Of a DNA stretch of 62,288 nucleotides, positions 24,033 through 55,500 are shown one piece after another. The stretch comes from Prevotella sp. (GTDB lineage: Bacteria; Bacteroidota; Bacteroidia; Bacteroidales; Bacteroidaceae), in assembly GCA_017645905.1 (NCBI GenBank), contig JAGCNO010000175.1, positions 1 through 62,288 on the forward strand, read 5' to 3'. A program made the position numbers and the translations under genes. Numbering within the stretch: position 1 is the first letter of the stretch; each line of letters starts with the position of its first letter. A model generated the notes under the pieces. It had not been told where the DNA came from. It searched no databases and worked only from the letters and a program-made list of their open reading frames with translations.

Positions 24033-26600
24033 ATGGCAACAACAAATTATTTCCCCAGGAAGTCGGAGTCAGCTCCGATGATTTATGCTTATGAGGATAA
24101 GTATGACCCACAGCTGAAAGGACTGCTGAAGGTGGGCTATACTACTGTTGGCGTGCAGGAACGGGTGCGCCAGCAGTATAACATTGTGCGGCCAGGCGAA
24201 CCACCTTACCGCATACTGGTAGAAGAGAGTGCCATGCGGAAGGACGGGACGTCGTTTATGGACCACGATGTGCATCGTGCCTTGCTGAAGATGGGCTGCC
24301 AGCACGTTGAGGGAGAATGGTATCGCGCTACGCCGCAACAGGTGAAGGCGGCCATCGTGGCTGTCAAGGAGAGGGTTGACGTGGCGTGGCATTGCGACAA
24401 GACTTTCAATATGCGTCCGGAACAAGAACGGGCGGTAATGAAAACTGCTGCATACTTTGACAACTACAAGTCAGAGGAAGGTCGTGTCCCTCACTTCCTC
24501 TGGAACTGCAAGATGCGCTTCGGCAAGACTTTCACGACCTATCAGCTGGCCAAGCGCATGGGATGGACGCGCGTGCTGATACTCACGTTCAAGCCCGCCG
24601 TAGCCCAGGCATGGGAGGAGGACTTGATGACACATGTGGACTTTGAGGGTTGGCAGTTCATTGCCAGAGGGGTTGGGGATTACAAATCCCCAACAGCAAA
24701 TACTATAGACTATCAGTTTGAACATGCCGACCAGTCAAAGCCAATGGTGGTGTTTGGGTCGTTCCAAGACTTCCTCGGGAAGAATACAGCTAATGGTGGC
24801 ATGAAGCTAAAGCATGAGTGGGCACGGGAATTCAACTGGGACTGCATCGTGCTCGACGAGTATCACTATGGCGCCTGGCGAGAGAATGCCAAGGAACTGA
24901 TTGGTGTCAGCGAAGACTTAGGCGGAGAGATAGAGAATCCTGACTATTTTGACGAGGACCTGATTCCCATCACGTCTAATCATTATCTCTATCTCTCGGG
25001 CACTCCCTTCCGGGCCATTGCCTCGGGCGAGTTTATCGAGGAACAGATTTACAACTGGACGTATAGCGATGAGCAGCGTGCAAAAGAGGAATGGGCGGCA
25101 GATTGCAAATCCGCCACAACGGGTGACAATCCATACGCCTCGCTACCAAAGATGGTGCTGCTGACCTATCAGTTGCCTGCGGAGATATCGCGAGTGGCTG
25201 AGGAAGGAGAATTTGACGAGTTTGACCTGAACTCTTTCTTTGAAGCCACAGTACCGTCGAATTGCAAATCCGACGTAACCGCTGCCGTGTTCAAGCATCA
25301 TGACGAAGTGCAGAAATGGCTCGACATGTTGCGGGGACAATATCTGCCGACCTCCATCAACGATCTGAAAGCTGGCAACAGGAAGCCTCCCCTACCCTTC
25401 CTGAACGGCGACCTCTATTCAAACATGAACCATACACTGTGGTTCCTGCCCAATGTGGCTTCGTGCTTTGCTATGAGAAACCTGCTGACGGAGCTACAGA
25501 ATACTTTCTACCATGAATACCGCGTCGTGGTTTGTGCGGGAACCAAGGCTGGTATCGGCCAGCAGGCTCTGCCGCCCGTTGAGAAAGCCATGTCGCATCC
25601 TGACCCGCTACATTGCAAGACCATTACACTGACCTGTGGCAAGCTGACGACGGGTGTCACCGTCCGTCCTTGGACAGGCATCTTCATGCTGCGCGATACT
25701 TCATCGCCAGAGACTTACTTCCAGTCGGCCTTCCGGGTGCAGTCGCCTTGGACGATTACGAATAGCGACGGGCTGCATCCTAATAGGGTGGAGATACTGA
25801 AGAAGGTGTGCTATGTGTTCGACTTTGCGCCTAACAGGGCCTTGCGGAAGGTTGCCGACTATTCATGCCAGCTGAATGTGGAAGAGGGCAATCCGGAAAA
25901 GTGTGTAGATGACTTTATCAAGTTCCTGCCCGTGCTTTGTTATGAGAATGGCGTGATGAAAGCCTTGTCGGCAAGCGATGTGCTCGATATGGCTATGAAC
26001 AATACGTCGGCCACGCTCCTGGCGCGCCGTTGGGAGAGTGCCTTGCTGGTGAATGTCGATAACTTTACGCTCCAACGGCTGATGAACAATGCAGAGGCGA
26101 TGGCTGCCCTGATGAAGATTGAGGGATTCCGCTCGCTGAATCAAGACATTGAGACGATTATCAACAAGACTGATAACATCAAAAAGAAACGAAAGGAGAA
26201 CGAGGAAGGCCTGACACCCAAGGAAAAGAAAGAACTGAGCGAGGCAGAAAAGGAAATCAAGAGCAAACGCCGCCAGATACAGGAGAAGCTGATGAAGTTT
26301 GCTACGCGCATACCCATCTTCATGTATCTGACGGACTATCGGGAGTATTCGCTGAAGGATGTCATCCTGCAATTAGAGCCAACGTTGTTTGAGCGTGTAA
26401 CAGGATTGACCAAGCAGGACTTTGCGCTGTTGGTAAGTTTGAACGTTTTCAACGAGGCGCTGATGAACGATGCCGTCTATAAGTTTAAGCGGTATGAAGA
26501 CAGCAGCCTAAACTATGCTGGCATAGACCGCCATGAGGGTGAGAAGATGGTGGGCGGTTATAGTACCGTCATTTCTGTAGAAGAGTATCAACACCAGTAG
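24033..26600 (+). CDS. GIY-YIG (T5orf172-like) nuclease fused to a DExH helicase
   Basis: 855 residues. Residues about 15-115 form a GIY-YIG domain of the T5orf172 type: MIYAYEDKY, LLKVGYTT, the Arg in VQERVRQQY, and a late Glu in HVEGEWYRATP. A superfamily 2 helicase follows: motif I MRFGKTFTTYQ, motif II IVLDEYHYG, motif III YLSGTPFRA, motif VI YFQSAFRVQSPW. A Lys/Glu-rich coiled coil (near residues 705-760, 'KKKRKENEEGLTPKEKKEL') precedes the C-terminal domain. It looks like the restriction subunit of the adjacent methylase. Three short palindromes interrupt the coding sequence in frame (24672, 25094, 25255). It ends 3 nt from the convergent queH. Confidence 0.88.
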   Translation: MATTNYFPRKSESAPMIYAYEDKYDPQLKGLLKVGYTTVGVQERVRQQYNIVRPGEPPYRILVEESAMRKDGTSFMDHDVHRALLKMGCQHVEGEWYRATPQQVKAAIVAVKERVDVAWHCDKTFNMRPEQERAVMKTAAYFDNYKSEEGRVPHFLWNCKMRFGKTFTTYQLAKRMGWTRVLILTFKPAVAQAWEEDLMTHVDFEGWQFIARGVGDYKSPTANTIDYQFEHADQSKPMVVFGSFQDFLGKNTANGGMKLKHEWAREFNWDCIVLDEYHYGAWRENAKELIGVSEDLGGEIENPDYFDEDLIPITSNHYLYLSGTPFRAIASGEFIEEQIYNWTYSDEQRAKEEWAADCKSATTGDNPYASLPKMVLLTYQLPAEISRVAEEGEFDEFDLNSFFEATVPSNCKSDVTAAVFKHHDEVQKWLDMLRGQYLPTSINDLKAGNRKPPLPFLNGDLYSNMNHTLWFLPNVASCFAMRNLLTELQNTFYHEYRVVVCAGTKAGIGQQALPPVEKAMSHPDPLHCKTITLTCGKLTTGVTVRPWTGIFMLRDTSSPETYFQSAFRVQSPWTITNSDGLHPNRVEILKKVCYVFDFAPNRALRKVADYSCQLNVEEGNPEKCVDDFIKFLPVLCYENGVMKALSASDVLDMAMNNTSATLLARRWESALLVNVDNFTLQRLMNNAEAMAALMKIEGFRSLNQDIETIINKTDNIKKKRKENEEGLTPKEKKELSEAEKEIKSKRRQIQEKLMKFATRIPIFMYLTDYREYSLKDVILQLEPTLFERVTGLTKQDFALLVSLNVFNEALMNDAVYKFKRYEDSSLNYAGIDRHEGEKMVGGYSTVISVEEYQHQ
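24672..24694 (+). repeat. In-frame coding palindrome, copy 1
   Basis: Perfect 10-bp arms GTTGGGGATT and AATCCCCAAC around ACA. Read as V-G-D-Y-K-S-P-T in the helicase gene. Confidence 0.85.
25094..25115 (+). repeat. In-frame coding palindrome, copy 2
   Basis: GGCGG-CAG-ATT, loop GCA, AATCCGCC; the left arm has a 3-nt bulge. Read as A-A-D-C-K-S-A-T in the helicase gene. Confidence 0.7.
25255..25275 (+). repeat. In-frame coding palindrome, copy 3
   Basis: CGTCGAATT, loop GCA, AATCCGACG (one mismatch). Read as P-S-N-C-K-S-D-V in the helicase gene. Confidence 0.75.
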
Positions 26601-26603
26601 CTA

Positions 26604-27173
26604 CTAACGCATACTGAACTCGCAGCCGCAGTACTGCTGGTTGTAGAATCCGTATTCCCGCAGCAGCTGGTTGCGCCGCTCGTAGAGGCCTCCCTTGCGC
26701 CAGTTCTGTGCCCAAAAGCGGGTGCCGGCGACGGTGTTCTCGGCGTCGTGGCCTGCCCGCTCTATCTGCTCCAGACTTTTCCAGCGAGACGATGCCAGCG
26801 TGGTGGCAAACCAGGTGATGCCCTGACGTCTGGCCTCTTGTGCCGTAGCGGTGAGGCGCTGCCTGAAACAGCACTCACAACGCCTTCCGCGTTCTGGCTC
26901 GCCCTCCAGACCTTTTACGCAGCTAAGCCATTGGCCGTGGTCATAGTCGCCGTCTATCCAGTGCAATCCCAGGCTTTCGGCATGGCGCTTGCTCTCCTGC
27001 TTACGAATCTCATACTCCTCAAAGGGGAAGATATTGGGATTGTAATAATATATGGTGGGCGTGACACCATGATCTACCAGCCACTCGACGATGGCCGACG
27101 AGCAGGGAGCACAACAGGCGTGAAGGAGCACTTCCCTCACGCCTGTCGGAATAATGATTGGGGGCTGTTTCAT
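26604..27173 (-). CDS. queH: Epoxyqueuosine reductase QueH
   Basis: 189 residues, normal for QueH (formerly DUF208). It reduces epoxyqueuosine to queuosine in tRNA, replacing the unrelated QueG. The conserved cysteines are all present: HACCAPCS (Cys20, Cys21, Cys24), RRCECCFRQRL, and the C-terminal YCGCEFS. The start ATG overlaps the upstream stop as TAATG, so translation is probably coupled to the dockerin beta-helix gene, an odd pairing of functions. Its stop lies 3 nt from the convergent helicase stop, with no terminator between. Confidence 0.96.
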   Translation of the reverse strand: MKQPPIIIPTGVREVLLHACCAPCSSAIVEWLVDHGVTPTIYYYNPNIFPFEEYEIRKQESKRHAESLGLHWIDGDYDHGQWLSCVKGLEGEPERGRRCECCFRQRLTATAQEARRQGITWFATTLASSRWKSLEQIERAGHDAENTVAGTRFWAQNWRKGGLYERRNQLLREYGFYNQQYCGCEFSMR

Positions 27174-28849
27174 TAGTTTTCTCCAGCCATAATGCTGATA
27201 ATGCTGGCAATATCGGCCACGTCGACACTTCCGTCACCATTGACGTCGGCAGCATCGTAGTTTCCATCGCCGGCCATAACGCTGATGACGGAGGCAATAT
27301 CGGCCACATCTACCGAACCGTCGCCATTGACATCACCGGGAGTGCCCTTGACAACCTTGTAGGGATAGGTCTCCATGGTGCCGGGGTCGGTGTTGTCAAT
27401 GCACTCGCAACCCTCTGCAAGGAGGGATGAGGGTATGGGCTCTGAGAACAGGCCGCCAGAGCAGACCATCGTGCCTTCTGCCCAGCAGATGAGCATGTTC
27501 CAAGCCTTGATGCGGCAGCCGGTAATCTCCACGTTTCCATTGGTGGCAATACCCGAGCCATGACCGTTGTTCGTGATGGTGCCTCCGCTGACGGTTGCCT
27601 TGCCATAGTAGATGGTGATGGTCTGAGCCGTGGAATTGTTGGTGAACGTTCCGCCATTGATGATGGTGTTGGTGTTGACGTTTGCCCAGAGGCAGCGACG
27701 GTTGTCGGTCTCGGGGCTATCCTCAGGCAGCTCACAGTTGTTGAGGAAGGTGCCGCCCTTGATGACCAATTCGCCGGTGGTGTTGTAGTTGTGGACTACA
27801 TTGATGTTGCCAGTCGTGACAAACTCTCCACCGCTGACGGTAGCGTCGCCGTTGAACACAAGTACCTGATAGGGCGAAGTGAACTTACCGGCAGTGATAG
27901 CCGTTCTGGTATTCTGGTAAGAGATGACGCAGTAACGCTGGTCGGTACCCTCGGCAGGCTTGGAGCCAAGGTTTGTGAACGTGCCGCCATTGATGGCCAC
28001 ATCGCCATTAGCGGACATGTTGCCCACTACGAAGCCATTGCCCGTCGTCGTAAAGTTACCGCCATTAACAATGGCTGAGCCGAGCAGGTAGAGGACATGA
28101 TTGCCAGAAGTAAAGGTGCCACCCTTAATAAGGGTGTTTGTCCCGGTGCTTGTCCAAAGGCAGCGGCGCACATCGTTGCCGGAGGGAATGTCAGCAAGGT
28201 TGGAGAACAAACCGTTATTGATAATCAGTTGCTTGTCGGTACAGTAGTTAGCTACTACATCGCAGTTGCCTGTGGTAGAAAACGTACCGGTATCGATAAC
28301 TGTCTCGCCTGCAAGACATAAGGCCTGCCCGGTAGAGGAGAAGGTGCCGCCCTTAATGTGGGTGGTAGAACCAGCAAAGGTGATGAGGCATCGGCGGGCA
28401 TCGTTAGCATTCACTTCCTGTGATGAGCAAGTGAAGATACCGCCGGTGATGGTCAGCTCACCATAATTATAAATCATGCTGACGTTGCCATGATCAAGAA
28501 TCATGGAGCCACTGCCGTTGCTGCTGTCGGTAATGGTAAGCGTGCCGTAGTTGTAGATGCCTTGGCTCTCGATTTCCACCTTGTGACCGTTAAGGTCGAG
28601 CGACACGGTAACGCCCTTCTGGAGAACGATGAGACCCATCTTGGCGTCGTCTACGAGCTGGATATTGGTCACGGTAGAGTCTGTTGAGGAATAGAATGCT
28701 CCGTCGAGTGTGGCGTATGGAGTCTCACCGTTAACGATAGCCACGGGAATGATAATGTCTTCTTCCTCCTCGCCGTCGGGCATCGCTGCCCATGCCTGAC
28801 CAACGAAAGCCAGGGCCGAGAACATAAAAATGTAAAAACGTTTCTTCAT
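27173..28849 (-). CDS. Secreted beta-helix protein with C-terminal dockerin-like repeats
   Basis: 558 residues. Signal peptide MKKRFYIFMFSALAFVGQAWA. Residues about 95-470 are imperfect repeats of roughly 75 residues, each with 'INGGTFTN'- or 'IKGGTFSS'-like turns and an 'RRCLW'-type segment. This is a right-handed beta-helix of the kind seen in adhesins and pectin-binding proteins. The end carries two calcium-binding dockerin loops (DVNGDGSVDVADIAS twice). No cohesin is visible in the window, so the dockerin pair may be a folding or anchoring module. It lies 49 nt after the ABC-F gene with no clear promoter of its own. Confidence 0.85.
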   Translation of the reverse strand: MKKRFYIFMFSALAFVGQAWAAMPDGEEEEDIIIPVAIVNGETPYATLDGAFYSSTDSTVTNIQLVDDAKMGLIVLQKGVTVSLDLNGHKVEIESQGIYNYGTLTITDSSNGSGSMILDHGNVSMIYNYGELTITGGIFTCSSQEVNANDARRCLITFAGSTTHIKGGTFSSTGQALCLAGETVIDTGTFSTTGNCDVVANYCTDKQLIINNGLFSNLADIPSGNDVRRCLWTSTGTNTLIKGGTFTSGNHVLYLLGSAIVNGGNFTTTGNGFVVGNMSANGDVAINGGTFTNLGSKPAEGTDQRYCVISYQNTRTAITAGKFTSPYQVLVFNGDATVSGGEFVTTGNINVVHNYNTTGELVIKGGTFLNNCELPEDSPETDNRRCLWANVNTNTIINGGTFTNNSTAQTITIYYGKATVSGGTITNNGHGSGIATNGNVEITGCRIKAWNMLICWAEGTMVCSGGLFSEPIPSSLLAEGCECIDNTDPGTMETYPYKVVKGTPGDVNGDGSVDVADIASVISVMAGDGNYDAADVNGDGSVDVADIASIISIMAGEN

Positions 28850-28878
28850 TTTTGATTTATTGTTTATTATAAAATGTT

Positions 28879-30587
<1,709 letters not shown>

Positions 30588-30593
30588 TTATTG

Positions 30594-31205
30594 TCAGAAT
30601 GTCGCCAACTCGTTGTAGACACGCTGTACGGGAAATCCCATCACGTTGTAGAAACTTCCCGCAATGGCCGACACGCCGACGTAACCTATCCATTCCTGCA
30701 CGCCGTAGGCTCCGGCCTTGTCGTAGGGTCGGTATTTCTCTAAATAGTAGGCTATCTCCTCGTCGGTAAGATGCTTGAAGGTCACGTCGGTAGTGGCCGA
30801 GAAGCGCCGTTCCCTATCCTTTGCCGTCAGGCAAACGCCCGTCACTACACGGTGGGTATGGTCGCTCAGCATGTGAAGCATACGGATGGCATCGTCCTTG
30901 TCACGGGGCTTGCCCAGCACGCTTGGAGGATTCACAGTTGTCGGGGACTTGTAATCCCCGACGATGACAATTGTGTCGGCGGTGATGATCAGCTCGTCGT
31001 CGGCCATCAGCGGCTTGTAGGCAGCAGCCTTCTCACAGGCGATGTGCTCCGCCACCTGCTCCAAGGGCATGCCAGGTGGATAGCTCTCGTCAATGTCGGG
31101 GAGAACCTTTACCTCGAAGGGAATGTCAAGGCCCTCTAACAACATCCTGCGGCGGGGAGAGTTGCTGGCCAGCACTACATGGTATTTCTTCAGATTGTCT
31201 AACAT
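30594..31205 (-). CDS. maf: Maf-family nucleotide pyrophosphatase with an inserted palindrome
   Basis: 203 residues from the ATG at 31205, placed after a full promoter. Maf proteins hydrolyse non-canonical or modified nucleoside triphosphates (dTTP/UTP type here by general likeness). Motifs seen: VVLASNSPRRRMLL at the N-terminus, ADTIVIV, LGKPRDKDDAIRML, and AGAYGVQEW near the C-terminus. Normally ADTIV-V is followed within a few residues by (V)LGKP. Here an extra stretch, GDYKSPTTVNPPS, stands between, and its DNA is a palindrome (30940-30962). The loop is near the active site, so the insertion is either tolerated or changes activity. Confidence 0.93.
   Translation of the reverse strand: MLDNLKKYHVVLASNSPRRRMLLEGLDIPFEVKVLPDIDESYPPGMPLEQVAEHIACEKAAAYKPLMADDELIITADTIVIVGDYKSPTTVNPPSVLGKPRDKDDAIRMLHMLSDHTHRVVTGVCLTAKDRERRFSATTDVTFKHLTDEEIAYYLEKYRPYDKAGAYGVQEWIGYVGVSAIAGSFYNVMGFPVQRVYNELATF
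30940..30962 (-). repeat. In-frame coding palindrome, copy 4 (in maf)
   Basis: Arms GTCGGGGA and TCCCCGAC plus inner TT/AA. On the sense strand it reads V-G-D-Y-K-S-P-T, the same frame and nearly the same bases as copy 1. Confidence 0.88.
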
Positions 31206-31228
31206 GGCGTCTTCTTGTTTTGCGGCGG

Positions 31229-31260
31229 CAAAGGTAGTCATTATTTCCGGGATATGCAAA
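31229..31260 (-). promoter_or_regulatory. Promoter of maf
   Basis: Minus strand TTTG (31260-31257), 20 nt, TACCTTTG (31236-31229), then 24 nt to the ATG. Confidence 0.8.
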
Positions 31261-31389
31261 TCTTTCAGAAGTAAATATTTCAAGATTCACATTTGCTCAA
31301 CTCTCCTTTATCTCCCTAACCTTCTTGTCACTCAGTTTCTTACTACCTTTCTCATGGTTTCAACCGTTGAAAGTCATGGAAAGGACGTA

Positions 31390-31463
31390 TTTCCAATATA
31401 GTTTCCTTACTGGAAACTGTCAGTTCCCCATAAGGAAACTGTGAGTTTCCATACCGGAAACTG
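31390..31463. repeat. 22-bp-period hairpin array with a GGAAACTG core
   Basis: GGAAACTG recurs at 31412, 31434 and 31456, exactly 22 bp apart. Between them lie GTTTCC-like complements, so each period folds as a small stem-loop (for example AGTTTCC, TTACT, GGAAACT). It sits in the divergent gap between maf and the TonB receptor (31206-31637), which otherwise has only the two promoters. Confidence 0.8.
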
Positions 31464-31581
31464 AAAGACTGGCCGTACTATTCCTTGGAAAAGGTCGTAG
31501 GAAGCTCAGGGAAAGGATGGCCAGATAGTTTACTGACATAACGGTCTAAACGTTAATAGTGGCAAAATATCGGCGCAATTT

Positions 31582-31612
31582 TTTGCCAAAACCATCTTTA
31601 TTCGTAATTTTG
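31582..31612 (+). promoter_or_regulatory. Promoter of the TonB-dependent receptor
   Basis: TTTG (31582-31585), 19 nt, TAATTTTG (31605-31612), 25 nt before the ATG. Confidence 0.78.
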
Positions 31613-31637
31613 CAGATTGAATATAGAGAAAAGACCT

Positions 31638-36808: not shown

Positions 36809-38396
36809 TTTCCTTCAGCTCCTGAATACGTGGTTCCCAATCTTTGTCGAATCGCTTAATGTTTCGGTCGAGGAACGCCAGACGTTTGGCGAGCCATTCT
36901 TTGAGGATCTGTATTTCCTCATCGTAGGAACTGACACGATAGGCGGCAAACATGCTGGCAGCATTGAAACCACCTCCGAAACCTTCAAAATCGCCCATCG
37001 GCGGGAAGCCTCCGGGAAAGGGAGAAATGGAGTCTGGCATCTGGAAATTGCCCATCGGCGGGAAGCCTACAGGAAAGGGAAGGATGGAGTCTGGCATCTG
37101 GAAATCGCCCATTGGCGGGAAACCTCCAGGAAAGAGCGGGAGAGAGTCAGGCATCTGGAAGCCACCCATCGGCGGAAATTGTCCGAAGGGTTGTGCCATT
37201 AACTGCTCCTTTTCTTCCTCAGAAACAAGCAGTTCGGGGTATCTCTCAAAGTGCCTTCCTATGCAGGGTGCCAACAGCTTGGCGTGGCAATCGATGTAGG
37301 CATTGATGGCCTTGTTGCTTAGCACACCCTTGCGCAGGGCCTTGTAGCGCACCTTTACCGCCTTGCGGAAAACAGGATCTTGTAGCAGCCGCTGCCACAT
37401 TGCGGGTGTGGGGTTGTTGCTCGCACCCTCAAAGCACCAGGCCTCCAGATTGTTGGCGTTGGCAAAGTTGGCATTGCCATAGGCCAGATTATAGTCCCAC
37501 ACGGGTCCTGCCACGAGCTTGCCGCCAGTACCGTCGGCGTTCAGCTTCTCCTTGTAGAAATAGGCACTGCGCTTGTAGCCGTCGGCATTGAGGCTCAGCT
37601 CCGTGTGTATGAAGTAGTCTACGAACGAGGGCACGTCGATGTAGCGGGCATAGCCTCGCTCGGGGTCGGCAAATGTTTCCGACTGAATCACCTGTTCCAC
37701 CGTGTCCACATAGTTATGGATATAGTCAAACTGCTCGGGCTGCAGTTTCTTCTTCTTCGGATAGATGCACGACCAGATGACCTGGCTCGTCATGTTGCCC
37801 TCGCCGATGCCCGGCACTTTCGACGTGAAAGTGGCATCGTCTTGATTGTAAGTATCGATGCGCAGCAGGTAACCGCCCGTCACGTCACGACCCTTGACAT
37901 CGGTCTTTTTCAGTTTTGCAATATTCACACGGTCTATGCCGCGCTTGATGGCTTCCGAGAGGATGTAGATGCCCCTATAGTCGCCGTTTAGTGTCAGTTC
38001 GACAATCCGGGTGCGTGGCCCCCAATGGCCCATGTCACGCCACAGTTGGAACGCCAAGGGGTCGCGAACAGCTGATACATCGTTGTAGGGAGCCAGCAAT
38101 ACCCAGTCGCTATGAGCAGGCATACCAAGAAGTGGAGCTTCCACTTCCTTGCCGTCTGCGTCACGTAGCTCTATGGTATATTTCTTCTGGTTGAAGCCCA
38201 ACGAGCTGTTGCCACGTAGTTTGATACCGATGGGACCGTCGTAACCGTCAGTCAATAAATGTCCCGGAACCTTATGCTGAGGGTTCAACGAAGATTCCAC
38301 GGTGATGCTCATCTGCCCTACGGTCAGTTGTTGTGCTGTGGTGTCAACGAGTGTAAGGGCTAAGGCGATGCAAAGCAAAAAATTCTTTTTAACCAT
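36783..38396 (-). CDS. Secreted CotH-family protein with tandem Pro/Gly/Met repeats
   Basis: About 537 residues from the ATG at 38396, which gives a signal peptide (MVKKNFLLCIALALTLVDTTAQ). The CotH kinase domain is clear: 'IGIKLRGNSSLGFNQKKYTI', 'VDYFIHTELSLNADGYKRS', and the metal-binding 'GPVWDYNLAYGNANF'. CotH proteins are atypical kinases of secreted or surface proteins. Near the C-terminus are three and a part copies of a 19-residue repeat (FPPMGGFQMPDSLPLFPGG), with only small changes. The C-terminal codons overlap the clpC 3' end on the other strand. It lies 92 nt after galE, with a hairpin between. Confidence 0.9.
   Translation of the reverse strand: MVKKNFLLCIALALTLVDTTAQQLTVGQMSITVESSLNPQHKVPGHLLTDGYDGPIGIKLRGNSSLGFNQKKYTIELRDADGKEVEAPLLGMPAHSDWVLLAPYNDVSAVRDPLAFQLWRDMGHWGPRTRIVELTLNGDYRGIYILSEAIKRGIDRVNIAKLKKTDVKGRDVTGGYLLRIDTYNQDDATFTSKVPGIGEGNMTSQVIWSCIYPKKKKLQPEQFDYIHNYVDTVEQVIQSETFADPERGYARYIDVPSFVDYFIHTELSLNADGYKRSAYFYKEKLNADGTGGKLVAGPVWDYNLAYGNANFANANNLEAWCFEGASNNPTPAMWQRLLQDPVFRKAVKVRYKALRKGVLSNKAINAYIDCHAKLLAPCIGRHFERYPELLVSEEEKEQLMAQPFGQFPPMGGFQMPDSLPLFPGGFPPMGDFQMPDSILPFPVGFPPMGNFQMPDSISPFPGGFPPMGDFEGFGGGFNAASMFAAYRVSSYDEEIQILKEWLAKRLAFLDRNIKRFDKDWEPRIQELKEIKMPQWFR
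36994..37176 (-). repeat. 57-bp in-frame tandem repeat in the CotH gene
   Basis: CCCATYGGCGG recurs at 36994, 37051, 37108 and 37165, each 57 bp apart, so unit changes keep the frame (19 residues). Confidence 0.92.
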
Positions 38397-45262: not shown

Positions 45263-45305
45263 CAATCGCGGGCAAAATTCAAACAAAACGGATTAATCCA
45301 ACAGA

Positions 45306-45393
45306 AAAAGCCGTTCTTTCCACCAGAAAAAGCCGTTCTTTCTATCAGAGAAAGCCGTTCTTTCTATGGGAAAAAGCCGTTCTTTCTCCTCGT
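45306..45393 (-). repeat. 22-bp-period tandem array (4 units)
   Basis: AAAGCCGTTCTTTC recurs four times at exact 22-bp steps (CCGTT at 45311, 45333, 45355, 45377). It is in the divergent serS / Mrr gap, one of only two arrays not just after a stop codon. Confidence 0.9.
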
Positions 45394-45693: not shown

Positions 45694-45798
45694 ATGAGGA
45701 CAGATAATCAGATTGCCGCAGGCGCAGCTGAATTCGCGTCACGTCAAGACGATGACCGGGAGTCAATGCGTGACTTTATTATTCAAACTATTTTGTGA
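45694..45798 (+). CDS. Possible small protein (34 aa) ahead of the Mrr-type nuclease
   Basis: ATG at 45694, about 30 nt after the promoter, opens a 34-codon frame (begins MRTDNQIAAGAAEFASRQDD, ends IIQTIL). Its TGA overlaps a GTG that starts an in-frame extension of the nuclease gene (GTGA). Composition is protein-like: acidic middle, hydrophobic end. It may be a leader peptide or a small partner; no homology is recognised. Confidence 0.4.
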   Translation: MRTDNQIAAGAAEFASRQDDDRESMRDFIIQTIL

Positions 45799-45821
45799 AA
45801 AGACCAAATAACAATCGAGAT

Positions 45822-46721: not shown

Positions 46722-46755
46722 TTCCCTTTTGCAATCCACTATACATAAAACGATA

Positions 46756-46784
46756 AAAGCCACCCCATTTTACGAGGTGGCTTT
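46756..46784. terminator. Terminator between the Mrr-type and DUF4301 genes
   Basis: 9-bp stem AAAGCCACC/GGTGGCTTT with an 11-nt loop, A-rich before and T-rich after; likely works for both convergent genes. Confidence 0.8.
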
Positions 46785-46811
46785 AATTGTTGATGTGTTT
46801 AAAGATTACGA

Positions 46812-48314
46812 CTATCCCTGATGCTGCGGGCGGAGCAGGTCGTTGACGGTCTTCACGGGGTTGAAGGTGCCGAGAGGCACTTCTACGAAGACGGTTGACC
46901 AGTCGCTCATGGCTCCGTTCCAGAGGCCGGGCAGTTCGAGGGCCTTCAGCTCCTTGCCGCCCTTCGATTTCGAGGAGATGAAACCCGTGGTCTTGTCGAC
47001 GAACTCGGGCAGGTAGTAGGGATTGCCGAGATAGTCCTTCACGGCGCAGACGAGGTCTACGGGATTGAAGTGAGTGCCCTGGGTGAACATCTTCATGTAT
47101 TCCTCGTTGTTGGTGTCAATCTGAGAGCTTTCGAGAATCTGAAGCGAGACGGTGCCGTCCTGATTGTAGGTGAGGAAGGGGCCTCCGCCAGGCTCGCCCA
47201 TGTTCTTTACCACACCACAGACGCGCATGGGACGGTCCAGCTTGCAACGCAGATAGCCAGCGTCAACCACATTGTCCTTCGGGTCTACGCACAGGCAGTC
47301 CTTTACAAACTGTGCTATCTCCTTCAGCTGGGCATCGGTGGCTCCGTGGTCGAGAATGCGGAGATAGTCGAAGGCCTTCTGCTGGAGGGTGACGAGCACG
47401 CCGGCGATGACCTGCTTCCACTCTACGGTCTCGGGCTTCAGGCGGTCGGGCACCACATTGTCGATGTTCTTGATGAATACCACGTCGGCCTCTATCTCGT
47501 TGAGGTTCTCAATGAGAGCGCCGTGACCTCCAGGACGGAAGAGCAACGAGCCGTCGTCCTCGCGGAAGGGCGTGTTGTCCGTGTTGGCGGCGAGGGTGTC
47601 GGTAGAGGGCTTCTGCTCGGAGAAGGTAATGTCGTACTTGATGCCGTACTTCTGTGCGAAGCCGTCGGCTTTCTCTGCCACCTTCTGCTTGAAGAACTCC
47701 AGATGGTCGTGCGAGACGGTGAAATGTACATGCGCCTCACCATTGCTGGCGGCATAGAGTGCTCCCTCGACGAGGTGCTCCTCCATGGGCGTGCGGGCAC
47801 CTTCGGGGTATTTGTGGAAGAGGAGCATGCCCTTGGGTAGCTGACCGTAGTTCAGGCCTTCCTTCTTCAGCATGTTGGCAGCAACGGCCTTGTAGTTGCC
47901 TTCGGCCATCAGGGCCTTGATGCCCTTGCCCTCGTTCTTCAGGCATACGGCATCGAGAGCGTCATAGAAGGCAAAGTGCTCTATCTCGTCGAAATATTTC
48001 TTCTCGAAGTCGGTGGTAGGCACATCATAGGGGGCATCTACGAAAGCGAACATGTTCTTGAACATACGGCTGGCGGCACCGCTGGCAGGAACGAACTTCA
48101 CGATGCGATGTCCTGCTGCCTTATACTGCTCCCAGGCGCTGATGTACTGCTTACGCTCTTCCTCTGTGGGGGCTACAATGCCACGTCCCACGGCTGCTGC
48201 GGCTTCGAGCTTCAAGAAGGGGAAGCCGGTCTCAAACTGGTGTAACTGGGTCTTGATTTGCTCCTCGCTAATACCACGCTGGGCAATCTGCTTTAGGTCT
48301 TTTTCCTGTAACAT
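46812..48314 (-). CDS. DUF4301 family protein
   Basis: 500 residues, close to the family length. Recognised by 'RIVKFVPASGAASRMFKNMFAF', a loop that resembles the nucleotide-binding start of nucleotidyltransferases, and by 'FRPGGHGALIENLNEIEADVVFIKNIDNV', which resembles sugar-nucleotide transferases. The family is common in Bacteroidetes and has no assigned function that I know of. Monocistronic by position, with a -7 box at 48351-48358 and a terminator after. Confidence 0.88.
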   Translation of the reverse strand: MLQEKDLKQIAQRGISEEQIKTQLHQFETGFPFLKLEAAAAVGRGIVAPTEEERKQYISAWEQYKAAGHRIVKFVPASGAASRMFKNMFAFVDAPYDVPTTDFEKKYFDEIEHFAFYDALDAVCLKNEGKGIKALMAEGNYKAVAANMLKKEGLNYGQLPKGMLLFHKYPEGARTPMEEHLVEGALYAASNGEAHVHFTVSHDHLEFFKQKVAEKADGFAQKYGIKYDITFSEQKPSTDTLAANTDNTPFREDDGSLLFRPGGHGALIENLNEIEADVVFIKNIDNVVPDRLKPETVEWKQVIAGVLVTLQQKAFDYLRILDHGATDAQLKEIAQFVKDCLCVDPKDNVVDAGYLRCKLDRPMRVCGVVKNMGEPGGGPFLTYNQDGTVSLQILESSQIDTNNEEYMKMFTQGTHFNPVDLVCAVKDYLGNPYYLPEFVDKTTGFISSKSKGGKELKALELPGLWNGAMSDWSTVFVEVPLGTFNPVKTVNDLLRPQHQG

Positions 48315-48350
48315 AGCTTATTATCTTTAAGGTTTAACTTATTTTGATGA

Positions 48351-48358
48351 CAAAGGTA
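48351..48358 (-). promoter_or_regulatory. -7 box for the DUF4301 gene
   Basis: TACCTTTG on the minus strand, 37 nt before the ATG; -33 box unclear. A heptamer run (GTCTAAG and relatives, 48400-48434) sits between this and the next gene's stop. Confidence 0.55.
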
Positions 48359-48426
48359 CTATTTTTTGTAGATATAACCATAATAAAAGTTGTTAAAAGT
48401 GAGGTCGGAGGTCAAAGGTCTAAGGT

Positions 48427-49071
48427 CTAAGGTCGTTCAAAGTGCTGATAGTCTTTCAAGGAGTTCCAGTTGCCTCCCCATAGGAATCCGTACTCCATAA
48501 ACAGGCGGTAGCAGAGGTCGCCGCGTTTCAGCTTGTAGGGCGATGTCTTGCTACGATCGGCATAGCGTGTGCCGGCAGCAGGCTGGACGATGGTCTTGGC
48601 GCCTTTCTTCCTGACGCAGGGATTGTAGAGCGGGTTGATGTCTACGGCCATTCCTAAGGCGTGCTTGGACAGCCGTTTGCTGCCCGCCACCTTTCGGAAA
48701 CAGAAGCAGGAGGTGTTGTTCGCCGTCATAGAGCGCTCGTCGTCAGCATCATAGTCGTCGATGAGCGTCATGCGCTCTATGGGGTAGCGGGCTTCGTAGA
48801 GACGGCGGAAGATGTTGAGCAGGTCGGACGCGATGGCTTTGTTGCACACCATCTGCCCTTGCTTCGTATGTCCTTCGGCATCGCAATGGAGCACGCTGAG
48901 AAGGCGCAGGTCACTTCGTGCTACCGTGCATCCCTCAGGATAGCTCTTGCCCATCATCCGGCTGAACACCTCGTTGCTGAGGGTATCGATGCGGAAAGCA
49001 TCCGGCACCTGACCGCTGACCGTAAGGCAGCAAGCGAGAAGAAAGAGAAGCAGGGAAATGTGATGTCTCAT
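48427..49071 (-). CDS. Secreted M15-family peptidase
   Basis: 214 residues with a signal peptide (ending near CLTVSG). The zinc ligands of M15 peptidases are seen: His and Asp in SKHALGMAVDINPLYNP, and the C-terminal His in DYQHFERP. 'WGGNWNSLKDYQHFE' matches the M15C/VanY-like end. It probably trims peptidoglycan peptides (D-Ala-D-Ala or L-Ala-D-Glu type). A -7 box TACCTTTG lies 26 nt before the start. The stop overlaps a heptamer run. Confidence 0.9.
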   Translation of the reverse strand: MRHHISLLLFLLACCLTVSGQVPDAFRIDTLSNEVFSRMMGKSYPEGCTVARSDLRLLSVLHCDAEGHTKQGQMVCNKAIASDLLNIFRRLYEARYPIERMTLIDDYDADDERSMTANNTSCFCFRKVAGSKRLSKHALGMAVDINPLYNPCVRKKGAKTIVQPAAGTRYADRSKTSPYKLKRGDLCYRLFMEYGFLWGGNWNSLKDYQHFERP

Positions 49072-49096
49072 ATATATTATTTAGGTGTAGTGAGGG

Positions 49097-49104
49097 CAAA
49101 GGTA
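49097..49104 (-). promoter_or_regulatory. -7 box for the M15 peptidase gene
   Basis: TACCTTTG on the minus strand; no clear -33 box. Confidence 0.5.
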
Positions 49105-49174
49105 TGAAGATTATTCCGAAAAGAAGGCATCGACGGTTCTTTTTTAATGTATTTTCAAAAAAAAGAGGGAAAAA

Positions 49175-49206
49175 TTTGCGGGGTAAAGAAAAAATAGTTA
49201 CCTTTG
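49175..49206 (+). promoter_or_regulatory. Promoter of the tRNA pair
   Basis: TTTG (49175-49178), 20 nt, TACCTTTG (49199-49206), about 20 nt before the first tRNA. Confidence 0.82.
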
Positions 49207-49226
49207 CAGCCGCAAATGAAAGGAAG

Positions 49227-49302
<76 letters not shown>

Positions 49303-49345
49303 ATAAGAGGAACTCCAGCGTTCCTTTTTTTAGCTTGATAGCAAG

Positions 49346-49418
49346 GCGGAATTAGCTCAGTTGGTAGAGCATTGGCTTCCCAAGCCGAGGGTCGCGGGTT
49401 CGAGTCCCGTATTCCGCT
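49346..49418 (+). tRNA. tRNA-Gly (anticodon CCC)
   Basis: Acceptor GCGGAAT/ATTCCGC, anticodon loop TTCCCAA with CCC, T-arm GGGTTCGAGTCCC. CCA is not encoded, unlike the upstream tRNA-Thr. It shares that transcript; spacing 43 nt. Confidence 0.93.
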
Positions 49419-49436
49419 CAAAAGCAAATAATCCCC

Positions 49437-49874
49437 ATGTTTCAGATAGACCGTTCATACATAGAGCCCATCGAGTCGTTGGAGTCTCTTCAGGGAAAGA
49501 TTTGGGATATACGTACCGACTACAAGGACGACCCTACGCTTCCCCACATAGAAAATTATGGAATTACTGAGGAACAGTTTGAGGCTTATCTCGACCGCAA
49601 GCAGCACTTTGAAGACTTCAAGGCTGCATGGAAGAAGCACCGCCTGCTCATCCTCGTGCTCACCTTTACCGTTCCCGTTGCCATCTTCAGCCTTTTGATG
49701 AGGGGCAGGGATACCGGCCTGTATGCTTACTCCACTGGCTTGCTGCTCTGCACGCTCGTCTACCTCATCTATCTGAGCATCGAGGGCTATCGTGCCCGGG
49801 AGTTCCGTAATAATCCTTGCGAGACCTTTATCAAAGCCCTGCTGTCTTGGGAGGAGAATAGAGTTAGGAGTTGA
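49437..49874 (+). CDS. Hypothetical small membrane protein
   Basis: 145 residues. A soluble, charged N-terminal 65 residues are followed by two membrane helices (LLILVLTFTVPVAIFSLLM and YAYSTGLLLCTLVYLIYLSI) and a short C-terminal tail. No family is recognised. It starts 18 nt after tRNA-Gly, so it may be read from the tRNA promoter. Its last codons (NRVRS and the stop) are made of the start of a heptamer array, so the true C-terminus may vary between strains. Confidence 0.72.
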   Translation: MFQIDRSYIEPIESLESLQGKIWDIRTDYKDDPTLPHIENYGITEEQFEAYLDRKQHFEDFKAAWKKHRLLILVLTFTVPVAIFSLLMRGRDTGLYAYSTGLLLCTLVYLIYLSIEGYRAREFRNNPCETFIKALLSWEENRVRS

Positions 49875-49953
49875 GAGTTGAGAGTTAAGAGTTGAGAGTT
49901 GAGAGTTTAGTGTTGAGAGTTAAGAGTTGAGAGTTAAGAGTTAAGAGTTAAGT
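49860..49953. repeat. Long heptamer microsatellite
   Basis: About 13 degenerate 7-bp units (GAGTTGA, GAGTTAA and close variants) from the end of the membrane protein gene to 11 nt before the flippase start. Confidence 0.88.
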
Positions 49954-49963
49954 GTTTTAAGAT

Positions 49964-51412
49964 TTGGGCACAGATAACCTGAAGGAAAGGACAGCCCGAG
50001 GCATTGCCTGGGGAGCGGTGAACAACGGCACGGTACAAGTGCTCAACCTTGTTTTCGGCATCGTGCTTGCCCGCCGCCTGTCGGAGGACGACTATGGTAT
50101 CCTTGCCTTGCTCACCATCTTTACCGCTCTTGCCGGATGCATACAGTCGGCAGGATTCTCTCAGGCGCTGGCCAATATGAAGCCGCCCACGCACCGTGAC
50201 TATAGTGCCGTGTTCTGGTTTAATACGCTGGCGGGCATCTCCTTATACATCTTATTATATATAGCCTCTCCGCTCATTGCTGCCTTTTTCCGACTGCCCG
50301 TTCTTACCGACGTGGCACGTTTCATCTTTCTTTGCATACCCATCTCTGCACTTGGCATAGTGCCCAACGCTAAGTTATGGATAGAACTGCGCAACCGTGA
50401 ACTGGCTATTGCAGCCATTGTCTCGCTGGCCTTGTCGGGCTGTGTGGGCATCTGGCTGGCCTATCATGGCTATGGCTACTGGAGTTTGGCTTGGCAACAG
50501 CTACTTTTCATATCCCTAAGCAGTCTCATCAAATGGTGCTTCACACGTTGGCGCCCACTCCTGCCTATTGATATGAGCCCCATCCGCAGCATGTTCCGAT
50601 TCTCCTCGAAGCTCTTGCTGACGAATATGCTTACCGTTACCAGCCAGAACGTGCTGACGTTCATCTTCGGCAAGCTGTTGCCCATTGGTGTCGTGGGACA
50701 GTTCAACCAGGCTAACAAGTGGAACACGATGGGCAATTCGTTCATCAGCAATACCATGCAGCAGGTGGCACAGCCTGTTCTCACGCAAGCCTCTGTAACC
50801 GACAATGATGAGGAGCCCCTCGTTCGACAGGAGCGAGTGTTCCGCAAGATGCTGCGTTTCACCGCCTTCGTCACCTTCCCCCTGATGCTTGGTCTTGCCT
50901 TGGTGGCCCGGGAGTTCATCGTGCTCACTATCACCGAGCGGTGGCTGCCCTGCGTGCCTTTGCTTCAGACACTTTGCATAGGAGGGGCTTTCCTTCCGCT
51001 TCACACGCTCTATCAGAACTTCATCATCTCCCGAGGACGTAGCGACCTTTACCTGCGCTGCATCGCCCTGATGATTGTTCTACAGATAGTCCTCACCCTC
51101 TCCCTCTCTTCTTTGGGCATTATGGCTATGGTGATAGCCTTCTCCGCCCTGAACGTTGCGTTCACCGTCTGCTGGCACATTGCCCTGAGCCGTGTGGCAC
51201 CCATATCCTTCCTCTCGGCCCTGAAGGACATCATACCGTTCTTCATCATCGCTCTTGCCGTGATGGCCGTTACCTACGTCCTGACCGCCTCTGTGGAAAA
51301 TCTTGCCATACTGCTGGCTTCGCGTATCGTCATAGCCTCAATACTCTATGTCGGCCTGATGAAACTCTTGCGTTCCAAAACCTTAGAAGAATGTATAAAG
51401 TTTCGGTTATAG
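49964..51412 (+). CDS. Wzx-like polysaccharide flippase (MOP superfamily)
   Basis: 482 residues with about 12-14 membrane helices. The N-terminus 'RGIAWGAVNNGTVQVLNLVFGIVLARRLSEDDYGI' is the typical opening of Wzx/oligosaccharide flippases. I place the start at a TTG at 49964: a stop lies two codons upstream, and the first internal Met is far inside the protein. The heptamer array ends directly before it, so the original start may have been lost. It exports lipid-linked glycan; a GT2 gene overlaps its end by 22 nt. Confidence 0.85.
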   Translation: MGTDNLKERTARGIAWGAVNNGTVQVLNLVFGIVLARRLSEDDYGILALLTIFTALAGCIQSAGFSQALANMKPPTHRDYSAVFWFNTLAGISLYILLYIASPLIAAFFRLPVLTDVARFIFLCIPISALGIVPNAKLWIELRNRELAIAAIVSLALSGCVGIWLAYHGYGYWSLAWQQLLFISLSSLIKWCFTRWRPLLPIDMSPIRSMFRFSSKLLLTNMLTVTSQNVLTFIFGKLLPIGVVGQFNQANKWNTMGNSFISNTMQQVAQPVLTQASVTDNDEEPLVRQERVFRKMLRFTAFVTFPLMLGLALVAREFIVLTITERWLPCVPLLQTLCIGGAFLPLHTLYQNFIISRGRSDLYLRCIALMIVLQIVLTLSLSSLGIMAMVIAFSALNVAFTVCWHIALSRVAPISFLSALKDIIPFFIIALAVMAVTYVLTASVENLAILLASRIVIASILYVGLMKLLRSKTLEECIKFRL

Positions 51413-52344
51413 TCCCAGTCTACGGAGTTGAACACTTCATCGGGGCCTGTGCTGAGTCGTTGTTCAGCCAGACCTATTCCGAGCTGGAGTACATCTTTGT
51501 CGACGACTGCTCTCCCGATGCCAGCGTGCCCGTGCTTCAGGAAGTGCTGTCACGCTACCCTGAACGACAGTCCCAGGTACGTATCATCCATAATAGCGAG
51601 AACCGAGGCTCCGGTGCTACCCGTTCCATAGCCCTTGCCGCAGCTACAGGCGACTTCGTGATGTATGCCGACAGCGACGACGTGCTCATGCCCGATGCCG
51701 TAGAGAAACTGGTAAAAGCCCAGCAGTCTACTGGTGCAGACATCGTCGACGGCGGCTACTGCCGGCTGCTTCCCGATGGTACGATAGGGGAGACGGTCAC
51801 TCCCTTTCACGGCAATAAGGAAACGATGATGCGGCTGCTCCTGGCACAGAACGCCATCACTCACCAGGTGTGGGCACGTCTTATCCGCCGTAGTCTGCAT
51901 ACGGAGAACGGCGTAGACTTCATTCACGGCATCAATATGGCCGAGGACTATTGCATCATGCCCCGCCTGCTCTTCTTTGCCACCCGGTCATATATCGACG
52001 ATGTGCTCTACCAATACCGTGTGAACGAAACGGGAACCTTTGCCTCCTGGCTCAACGAGCGGCACATCGGCTCCTATCTTTCCGCCAGCCGCGTGGTTGG
52101 GGAGTTCCTTCGTAAGCATGATAAAGAACATGCCTACACTTACGCTTACGAGCTGGGCATGCTCAACACCATTCACCGCGCCTTGGGCATCATCGGTATT
52201 GACGACATCTACAAGTGGTGTCCCTACCATCCTACCATTCCTCTTTTCCGCCTTTGCCGTGCCCTGTTCTGCCACCATGCCACGCGCTTCCTGCTCAGGA
52301 ATGTCTATCTCCTGCTGAAGGGGCTCTACGTGAGGTGTCACTAA
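51391..52344 (+). CDS. Family 2 glycosyltransferase
   Basis: 317 residues. GT-A fold: VSVIVPVYGVEHFI at the N-terminus, DDCSPDAS, and the metal-binding DxD region MYADSDDVLMPDA. The catalytic acidic residue is probably in MAEDYCIM. Such enzymes add a sugar to a lipid-linked glycan on the inner face of the membrane. It overlaps the flippase gene by 22 nt, so the two are translated together and probably serve the same surface glycan. The acceptor is unknown. Confidence 0.92.
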   Translation: MYKVSVIVPVYGVEHFIGACAESLFSQTYSELEYIFVDDCSPDASVPVLQEVLSRYPERQSQVRIIHNSENRGSGATRSIALAAATGDFVMYADSDDVLMPDAVEKLVKAQQSTGADIVDGGYCRLLPDGTIGETVTPFHGNKETMMRLLLAQNAITHQVWARLIRRSLHTENGVDFIHGINMAEDYCIMPRLLFFATRSYIDDVLYQYRVNETGTFASWLNERHIGSYLSASRVVGEFLRKHDKEHAYTYAYELGMLNTIHRALGIIGIDDIYKWCPYHPTIPLFRLCRALFCHHATRFLLRNVYLLLKGLYVRCH

Positions 52345-52356
52345 AGGACAGATTGG

Positions 52357-52444
52357 TCCTATAGAAAGAATGGCTTTTTCTCATAGAAAGAACTATCTTT
52401 TCTCATAGAAAGAACGGCTTATTCTCATAGAAAGAACGGCTTAA
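52357..52444 (+). repeat. 22-bp-period tandem array (4 units)
   Basis: Four units starting 13 nt after the glycosyltransferase stop. Second halves: AATGGCTTTT, AACTATCTTT, AACGGCTTAT, AACGGCTTAA. Confidence 0.9.
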
Positions 52445-52509
52445 TCTCAAAGGGTCTGTTTTTTTGATAATTAACAAGGCGTTTTTTTTCATATCTGACA
52501 AGAAAGTAT

Positions 52510-52517
52510 TAACTTTG
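52510..52517 (+). promoter_or_regulatory. -7 box for the TamB-like gene
   Basis: TAACTTTG, 38 nt before the ATG; the -33 position is T-rich (TTTC at 52487-52490, 19 nt away). Confidence 0.65.
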
Positions 52518-52555
52518 CACGCGATTAGCGACGTGAAGGCGTAGGAACGAAATCT

Positions 52556-55500
52556 ATGAAAGTGTTGAAGCGCATACTCTACTTTACGATATGGAGTCTC
52601 GTAGCCCTCCATGTTGTGGTGCTGCTGGCTGTTCAACTGCCCCCGGTGCAGACCTGGCTTGGCAGTAAGGCGGGCACAGCGCTGAGTGAGAAGCTGGGCA
52701 CGAACGTCACCGTAGGACGTGTGGAGCTGGGACTCTTCAACCGCATCATCATCAATGACGTCTGCATCCCCGACCTTCAGGGTGACACGCTGCTCCGAGC
52801 CAGCCACCTATCGGTAAAAGCTTCGCTGCTGCCGCTGCTCAAGGGGCACATAGACATCTCGTCGGCTCAGCTTTTCGGTGCCCATGTGCGGCTTTATCAA
52901 GAAGACTCTTTATCAGCACCTAACTGGCAGTTCGTCGTTGACGCCTTCTCAACGGACAACGACTCCACAGAGCCGACACCTCTCGACCTGCACATCGGCT
53001 CGGTCATCGTGCGCCACAGCAGCGTTTCCTACGACCGAGGCGATGCCTTCACCACCCCGGGACGCTTCAACCCCGCACATATTGCCATCAATGACATCAG
53101 CGCCCACATCATGCTGAAGAGCCTTACCCCTGATTCTTTGAGCATCAACCTGAAGCGTCTTTCTATGCACGAGAAGTCGGGTCTCAGTGTGGAGAACCTC
53201 AACGCCCGTATCATGGCCGGTCCCCGTGCTGCCCAGTTATACGGGCTGCAACTGCAGCTGCCCCACTCTACTTTGGCTATCGACACCTTAGAGGCCACCT
53301 ATGCCCTAATGGAGGGGACAGAATCAGACAAGCAAAATTCCCCACAGGGAAAGGCTAACACGGAGGACAATCGCCGTCACTTCTTGGAGACCCTGCGCTA
53401 CCACGCCAATTTCGACGGCATTATCACACCTGCCGACCTCACGCCGCTCATTCCCTCTGTTCACGGGAATTTACAATCCCCGCACTCTCTATCTGCTTTG
53501 CCTCCTCTCACCCTCTCTGCCTCCCTCTCCGGCACAGCAAATTCCATCACCCTGCCTGACTTGAACATCTTCACTTCTGACGGCAATCTCATCGTGAAAG
53601 CCTCGGGCATCTTGGGCCCTCAAAAGGAATGGCACCTCGACATTGAGCAGTTTGAGGCCTATGCCGACATGTTGGCCACGTTGGAAGAGGCCTTCCCCGT
53701 CATCCCCGATGAGATTTCCCGTCTCGGCAATATCCACCTCACGGCAAGGGCTAAGCAACTGCCAGGCGGTCAGGCCGACGGTCAGGCAGCCATCGCCACC
53801 ACACTGGGTGATGCCCGCCTCCTCTTTGCCATCGACAGCAACGATGAACTCTCAGGCCAGTTTGTCACCGACAGCCTTCACTTGGGTCGTCTGCTGGCCA
53901 ACGATGACCTGGGGCCTATTGCAGCTAACATTACCCTCGGCGGTACCAGGCAGCAGCTGGAAGCCGAAGCCGTCATCAGCCAACTGCACTTCAAGGGTCA
54001 CCGCTACTCTGACATTAAGGGTAACTGCACGTACAAGCCTAAGGGTGGTGACGTAGCAGTCCACCTTTACGCACCCATCATGCAGCTCCATCCCTCAGGC
54101 CTCGGCCTTACTACAGAGAGAGACGATGCCTTCTTCTCGGGCACCGTAGAGGCCGATGTCACTATCGAAGGGGACATACAGTCTATTCAAGGGCATCCGA
54201 AATCCCTGCTTGACCGTGCTCAGGGCTTTGTGCGTATCGATGATTTCACCATGCGCACCGCCACAGATTCCTCGCTTTGCCACATTGACCATCTCGAATT
54301 AGCATCAAAGAACAACGACGGCGAGCGGGAGATAATCCTCACCAGCGATATTGCTAACGGAGAGCTGTTAGGGCAGTTCGATCTTGCCTCCCTCCCCAAC
54401 AGTCTGGCCCGCTACATGGAATCAAAGCTCCCTACCCTGCCGGGTCTCACCTCCACCTCAGTTAAAGGTGATTTGCAATCCCCGCACTCCTCAAATAATT
54501 TCAACCTTAACCTCACGGTATGGGACACCCAATGGATGAAGCCGCTGCTGGGCATACCCCTCACGCTACACCAGCCCCTGCGCCTCATTGCCGCCATCGA
54601 TGATGACGACCAGACCGTCAACATGAGCGGACGTCTGCCATCATTCAACTATTCCGGCAGTCGCTACCGTGACTGCCTCGTCAGCATTACAACTCTGGGC
54701 GACTCCACCCTCTGCGATGCTACACTCACGAAGATGAACGACGACGGCGGACAACTCACCCTCGTCGCTGACATCGGTGCCGCCAACAACGACATTCTCT
54801 CCCTGCTGTCTTGGCGTACCACACCGGCCTTGGAGAGCGACATGCAGTGGGCCACGAAAGGTGTCCTCAACACTGTGACACAGCTCTACACCAATGCCAA
54901 TGGGAAACCCGAAGCAAAAATTGGCGTGCTGTCCTCGCAAGTGATGGTTGGCGACAAGCCTTGGCACATACTGCCCTGCCGACTCACCTATTCCGATAAC
55001 CGACTTGACGTAGACAGCTTCGTAGTCAGACACAATGGCCAGCACCTCAGCATCGACGGTACGGCATCATCATCACACGCCGACACGCTCATCGTCGACA
55101 TGGACGGCCTGGACATTGCCTACATTCAAGACTTGCTCGACTTCCACCCCGTAGACTTCTCCGGACTGTTGGGGGGCAAGGCAAAGGGAACTGGTGTATT
55201 CGGCAACTTCGCCGCCTGGGCTGATATTGTGGCCCGCGATTTCCGCTTCATGAACGGAAGCATGGGAACGCTGCTGGCACAAGTAAAGTGGAACGCCGAT
55301 GACAAGCAGATAGACATTGACGCCGTAGCTGACGAAGGGGGACCCCGAACTGTCATTCAGGGTTATGTCTCTCCCGTCCGTGAAGACATCGACCTGAAGA
55401 TACGTGCCGAGGGCTCGAACATAGAGTTCGTCCATACCTTTGCCGAGAGCGTCATGCGCAATATCTCAGGCTCAGCCTACGGAGAACTGGAACTTGCAGG

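Follow-up and report, generated by a model that had tools for sequence, protein, structure and literature searches.

Short palindromes inserted in protein-coding genes of a Prevotella-like lineage are copies of a dispersed repeat with a strong reading-frame bias

The window analysed here, a 62,288-nucleotide stretch of the genome of a rumen Prevotella sp., raises the question of whether the short palindromes inside three of its genes are inserted copies of a repeat, and why all of them are read in the same frame. The sequence-only reading had placed six such palindromes in a helicase, a maf and a TamB-like gene, and inspection of the sequence found all six there (Table 1). The hairpin of copy 1 has a 10-bp stem and a 3-nt loop. 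The statement that all copies share the core GATT-N3-AATC was slightly generous because three of the six break one core position: cores are intact at 24678, 25101 and 54470, and one position is off in each of the copies at 25255, 30940 and 53464. The common frame was borne out, with the first base of the core at the first codon position in every copy to give [DN]-[YCL]-[KQ]-S. This set mixes orientations, as the four helicase and maf copies carry GATTRCAAATC in sense on the coding strand and the two TamB copies carry its complement. The element had been described as open in three frames, and all six frames of the consensus proved free of stops. The accompanying figure of 1 in 243 for six copies in one frame by chance holds only if all frames are equally tolerated and the sites are independent, and three of the sites lie in one gene.

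Table 1. Positions of the palindromes and their host genes, of other repeats in the window, and of sites at further loci of the window's own genome and of G422.
Feature	Coordinates	Strand	Remarks
T5orf172 and ResIII domain protein (helicase) gene	24033..26600	+	855 aa
Palindrome copy 1, T5orf172/ResIII protein gene	24672..24694	+	read GVGDYKSPT
Palindrome copy 2, T5orf172/ResIII protein gene	25094..25115	+	imperfect; read AADCKSA
Palindrome copy 3, T5orf172/ResIII protein gene	25255..25273	+	degenerate (AATTGCAAATC); read SNCKSD
Maf-like protein gene	30594..31283	-	229 aa
Palindrome in maf gene	30940..30962	-	coding strand GATTACAAGTC; read GDYKSPT
TamB family protein gene	52556..57055	+	1499 aa
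First palindrome, TamB-like gene	53464..53482	+	degenerate (AATTTACAATC); read GNLQSPH
Second palindrome, TamB-like gene	54467..54484	+	read KGDLQSPH
AGAAAGAACGGCTTTTTCTCAT-type array	2158-2260		
AGAAAGAACGGCTTTTTCTCAT-type array	14269-14340		
AGAAAGAACGGCTTTTTCTCAT-type array	22998-23080		
AGAAAGAACGGCTTTTTCTCAT-type array	45302-45387		
AGAAAGAACGGCTTTTTCTCAT-type array	52361-52449		
AGAAAGAACGGCTTTTTCTCAT-type array	58164-58234		
In-frame 57-bp repeat	36988-37175		3.3 copies
GAGAGTT-type tandem array	49860-49956		7/14-bp unit
Clean 21-bp site, G422	L158:2963		
Clean 21-bp site, G422	L163:2961		
Clean 21-bp site, G422	L163:3133		
Clean 21-bp site, own genome	L050:2475		
Two copies, transketolase-like gene, own genome	L017, ~2510-2548		28 bp apart
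RAYT-like protein P0004, own genome	L139, 987-1724	-	

The six palindromes are members of a real dispersed family, beyond chance. GATTRCAAATC matched 117 times in the 3.4-Mb genome of the window as compared to 0 times for a reversed control, GATTNNNAATC matched 162 times per strand as compared to 12 for its reversed control, and the 17-mer core had 50 exact matches in own-genome loci and the window as compared to none for a single-base shuffle. We analysed 100 of the 117 copies, three of them in the window, together with all 78 copies of G422, the MAG Prevotella sp. RGIG5135 from sheep abomasum, which is the genome behind L059, whose Maf was the closest found. Copies in tRNA-Thr(TGT) arms were dropped (four own and two G422; ARAGORN confirmed five of the six, and L049 was assigned by sequence identity only) and 15 ATATTCA/TATAC-headed copies were set apart by regular expression, leaving 87 own and 70 G422 copies with some REP-like ones still among them. 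The 93 copies with the full 17-mer gave the consensus and profile, a conserved 26-bp block (CTGYTSRAGGGGATTTGYAATCCCCG) that begins CTGYT and finishes CCCCG, with GYT before the core in nearly all copies and a hairpin of a 7-bp stem and a 3-nt loop. Information fell to about zero to the left of the block, and only a weak preference was seen to the right (A 0.44, C 0.59, C 0.54). An Rfam scan of the window matched two tRNAs and no other RNA family. Viral carriage was considered and set aside: an 18-mer occurred in one viral contig, with no frame across the match longer than 73 codons.

Most copies lie in coding sequence. Frames were called on the longest stop-to-stop ORFs rather than on annotated genes, and 63 of the 87 own copies and 50 of the 70 non-REP-headed G422 copies sit in dominant ORFs of at least 200 codons. 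The usual reading is one or two residues followed by GDLQSP, and tandem copies encode (VGGDLQS)n. Spacing between tandem copies in long ORFs was 21 bp in 9 of 17 pairs and a multiple of 3 in 14 of 17. This is no proof of frame selection because pairs in short-ORF regions were also multiples of 3 in 7 of 8 cases (the other was 20), and tandem spacing was dropped as a test. In G422 several copies at L147, L162 and L163 lie within a larger shared context, TGTAGGGGCAGG...GTGCCAGCCC, that is itself repeated.

Comparison of the two genomes supported the earlier proposal that the palindromes are insertions. In four DNA comparisons the own genome and G422 differed by 21 bp at the element, with flanks 74-88% identical (clean sites, Table 1), and other pairs differed by 19 bp (L034), by 48 bp (L006) or in a complex manner. 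Copies with clean borders add 21 bp, or seven codons. Visual inspection of the four cleanest pairs revealed no target-site duplication. Forty peptides were prepared, of which 20 were queried against G422 and 18 aligned, with doubtful orthology for the weakest alignments (L005, 48% and L036, 50% identity). The residues of the element were missing from G422 in 17 of the 18 genes, the match to L029 having GDLKSP. The difference was exactly 7 residues in five genes (L007, L008, L023, L036, L046), 4 to 6 residues in four (L011, L012, L015, L055:2477), 9 residues in L038 and 11 to 26 in three more. At L004, L005:9938, L014 and L055:3479 G422 has other, partly repetitive or low-complexity sequence of similar or greater length. 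Low-complexity inserts of other kinds occupy loops in G422 (L201, L205, L217, L215) where the own genome has a palindrome, suggesting that permissive loops are reused by different inserts. The transketolase-like gene in L017 carries two copies in different frames, GICNP and then GDLQSP, and its protein is 17 residues longer than the G422 match. Sites were filled in both genomes at L033/L199, L054/L167 and L019/L188 and in one genome only elsewhere, and the activity of the repeat therefore spans the split of the two species.

The three host genes in the window were compared with further relatives. In Maf a 10-residue gap fell at the site in 25 of the 30 relatives listed, in agreement with the earlier proposal of an insert, and the total excess at the palindrome is about 10 residues. 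The remaining five have different residues there, two being full length (L071, L073) and three being 5 residues shorter (L081, L083, L084). The insert is also absent from three aligned solved Maf structures. At the second TamB site exactly 7 residues were fewer in 6 of 10 relatives; of the others, G028 was 6 shorter, G423 3 shorter and G422 2 longer, and G009 came to 7 fewer only when a second gap, of 2 residues and further along, was included. Of the 10 relatives, 6 were a net 8 residues shorter where the first TamB copy lies. The four helicase relatives were only 26-31% identical, and some copies but not all faced gaps in them. The 7 residues of copy 1 were absent in G006 and G034 with no gap in G422, at copy 2 G422 was 6 residues shorter, G006 and G034 were each 3 residues shorter and the fourth relative was no shorter, and copy 3 had gaps opposite it in all three relatives aligned there, with other length changes nearby. 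Alignment resolved the inserts only weakly at the first TamB site and in the helicase.

Reading-frame use was tabulated on unique sites in dominant ORFs of at least 200 codons, 55 in the own genome (the three exact window copies included) and 45 in G422. The own sites comprised GDLQSP 36, GFAIP 4, GICNP 5, D[CY]KS 3, GLQIP 4 and GIANP 3, and the G422 sites GDLQSP 22, GFAIP 7, GICNP 2, D[CY]KS 6, GLQIP 4 and GIANP 4. GDLQSP exceeded the expected 1/6 in both genomes (36/55, p 9.5e-16; 22/45, p 5.9e-7), although these p values treat sites as independent and copies within one gene are not. Phase 0 on either strand accounted for 39/55 own and 28/45 G422 sites against an expected 1/3. The GATTTGC strand was the coding strand at 45/55 own and 31/45 G422 sites, and sites in the sense orientation were without frame bias (3, 4 and 3 in the own genome; 6, 4 and 4 in G422). 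The frame bias stems from one orientation. Non-random frame use, first noticed in the window, holds genome-wide; the single frame is a strong bias and not a rule because all six readings occur. The window is itself atypical: the sense reading D/N-Y/C-K-S is used by four of the six palindromes in it as compared to 3 of the 55 own sites, two of which are from this window. In GDLQSP copies, the glycine ahead of GAT was encoded by GGG in 50 of 66, and TCC-CCG followed in 49 of 66; this conservation at the DNA level indicates that DNA spreads, and not a peptide with free codons.

The explanation that we favour, at a probability of roughly two in three, is a mobile palindrome of the REP class whose insertions usually keep the frame and from which selection retains the peptide best tolerated in loops. 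The six palindromes would be copies of a dispersed, non-autonomous repeat with the core GGATTRCAAATCC, probably moved by transposition, and one variant of it, the 26-bp block, is largely intragenic in this Prevotella-like lineage. As none of the six readings contains a stop, the host reading frame would survive many insertions. With the host protein under purifying selection, mainly GDLQSP would then be kept, presumably the reading that loops and linkers tolerate best. Counting against this explanation are the size differences of 4 to 26 residues and the 48-bp and 19-bp pairs, the four of 18 aligned genes at which G422 has no shortening or has low-complexity sequence of another kind, a 26-bp block that exceeds the 21-bp gain, and a repeat to which no transposase is tied.

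The repeat was compared with known systems. The likeness to Rickettsia palindromic elements that had been drawn from the window held, in that palindromes are inserted in frame in unrelated protein genes and seen as extra encoded residues, as did the remark that the sequence is different and much shorter. The Rickettsia elements are about 100-200 bp according to PMC10969869 and PMC2229807, and the Prevotella repeat, a block of about 26 bp that adds about 21 bp, falls short of an element of that length with terminal inverted repeats and occurs in another phylum. Intragenic REPs of the GTAG- and CGTC-tagged kind are described in PMC3733652 as palindromes of 20-40 bp, mostly intergenic, with some lying within ORFs and missing from shorter homologues. 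The Prevotella repeat is likewise an imperfect palindrome of 20-40 bp in high copy, but unlike REPs it is not mainly extragenic, one reading dominates, no GTAG or CGTC end tag is conserved, and among the RAYT loci examined no RAYT gene is flanked by the repeat save at one G193 locus with a nearby core copy. Intergenic copies in G201 do carry CGTC as part of the stem, which counts against the absence of a REP tag. The repeat is a variant of the Rickettsia-palindromic-element and intragenic-REP kind, without the size of the former or the end tag of the latter. In searches of freely accessible literature no description of an intragenic Prevotella palindrome was found, and the core sequences retrieved only two works that, by title, concern fish tRNA primers and Spiroplasma surface proteins.

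The same hairpin core (GGATTGCAAATCC) is found in REPINs and intergenic REPs of Prevotella and Segatella, which differ in their flanks and in their mostly paired arrangement within short ORFs or intergenic sequence. The 15-mer GGGATTGCAAATCCC was present in 63 of 398 genomes of the genus, the window's own included, with 57 copies in the own genome, 38 in G337 (same coordinates as G422), 90 in G201 and 34 in G417. Copies of the core were sampled at 30 loci of G201, 30 loci of G417, G066, G263 and G193 together, and 16 stretches of S. copri iA622. They lay mainly in short ORFs, where they often formed paired repeats with other flanks, and a minority lay in longer ORFs (for example, a 921-codon frame of G066 holds three, G193 has several, and S. 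copri iA622 has L323, L324, L327, L328 and L331). The shared core suggests that the intragenic variant may have descended from an intergenic REP. REPIN-like copies that share the core, carry an ATATTCA-type head and pair in inverted orientation were also seen between genes at L010, L020 and L027 of the own genome and at L256-L285 of G201.

REPs are thought to be moved by RAYT-type HUH transposases, and such an enzyme of the own genome is a tentative candidate for moving this repeat. Five matches to a RAYT-like protein were obtained in the own genome (putative HUH proteins), and P0004 scored 45 bits against NF047646 (REP-associated tyrosine transposase), under the cut-off of 80. In a survey of 21 genomes (G096 and G423 share coordinates and were counted once) RAYT-like matches occurred in 8 of 10 repeat-rich genomes, G417 and G066 being the exceptions, but also in 5 of 11 repeat-free genomes. 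Among 25 RAYT loci a core copy lay beside the RAYT gene only in G193 (L234/L249, overlapping), and none lay beside it in the five own RAYT stretches. Neither distribution nor flanks tie RAYT-like genes to the repeat, which weakens RAYT as a proven mobiliser. The conserved halves of P0004 are separated by a small (QQTRP)n tandem.

A further proposal, which we regard as rather doubtful, is that the palindrome has adapted to life within genes. An intergenic REP core would have become a seven-codon cassette open in six frames, whose gain of 21 bp and loop-compatible peptide would render insertion in conserved genes almost neutral, whose main habitat moved from intergenic to coding sequence and whose readings suit their places, GDLQSP in loops and GFAIP in signal peptides. 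GFAIP sites lay within 30 codons of the first ATG in 3 of 11 cases (L150, L154, L187), and by eye these look like signal peptides. The hydropathy fit of GFAIP sites is only suggestive, with p 0.045 on unique sites (11 vs 58) and p 0.003 when the limit was 150 codons and tandems were left uncollapsed.

It is unlikely that the frame and orientation bias was made by the insertion mechanism, through a target motif or transcription coupling, rather than by selection. The excess of coding GATTTGC strands, the even frames of sense sites and the GYT that precedes the core would all fit such a mechanism. We counted how often sense occurrences of the candidate motifs fall in the favoured phase in 33 window ORFs, and obtained 29% for GYT, 28% for TGYT and 22% for CTGYT as compared to the 36/45 observed. 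CTGTT, the commonest start of the block, reached 44%, tied with another phase, and so mildly favours the phase observed. By eye, GYT was missing from the empty site of three out of the four cleanest pairs. A target motif was rejected as the cause of the bias on these phase counts. GDLQSP is hydrophilic, cysteine-free and turn-forming, and of the causes that remain, selection acting on the encoded peptide explains its excess most simply. Selection alone may not suffice because the cysteine-free sense readings GLQIP and GIANP look harmless yet are rare, and a partly mechanistic cause is possible.

It is very unlikely that short repeats, the palindromes being one class of them, are made locally in permissive loops by slippage or template switching: the other low-complexity inserts of G422 at several of the same loops (L004, L005:9938, L014, L055:3479) and the 21-bp tandems speak for it, but slippage does not scatter one sequence across many contigs and among unrelated genes, as is seen here. 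Least probable of all is a motif drive without insertion, with point mutations in place favoured by uptake or repair machinery, since, although the DNA uptake sequences of Pasteurellaceae and Neisseria are also short over-represented motifs with a bias inside genes, including an orientation bias in reading frames according to PMC2346458, here orthologues differ by whole 21-bp blocks with a change in length, copies form tandems and the core is patchy between species of the genus.

Selfish DNA within coding sequence has been known mainly from Rickettsia, plus scattered intragenic REPs elsewhere. Here an insert of about seven residues, in which one reading dominates, occurs in dozens of genes, often not the same ones in two related species. 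It amounts to a natural experiment on the protein sites and frames that tolerate insertion, and raises the question of how so short a repeat moves. It is also a warning for annotation, as GDLQSP, DYKSP and GFAIP stretches in such proteins may derive from the repeat.

The window holds other repeats as well (Table 1). A 22-bp tandem repeat forms six mostly intergenic arrays in both orientations, the GAGAGTT-type array separates a pair of tRNAs from the ORF that follows, and the 57-bp repeat lies at the end of a 596-codon minus-strand ORF.
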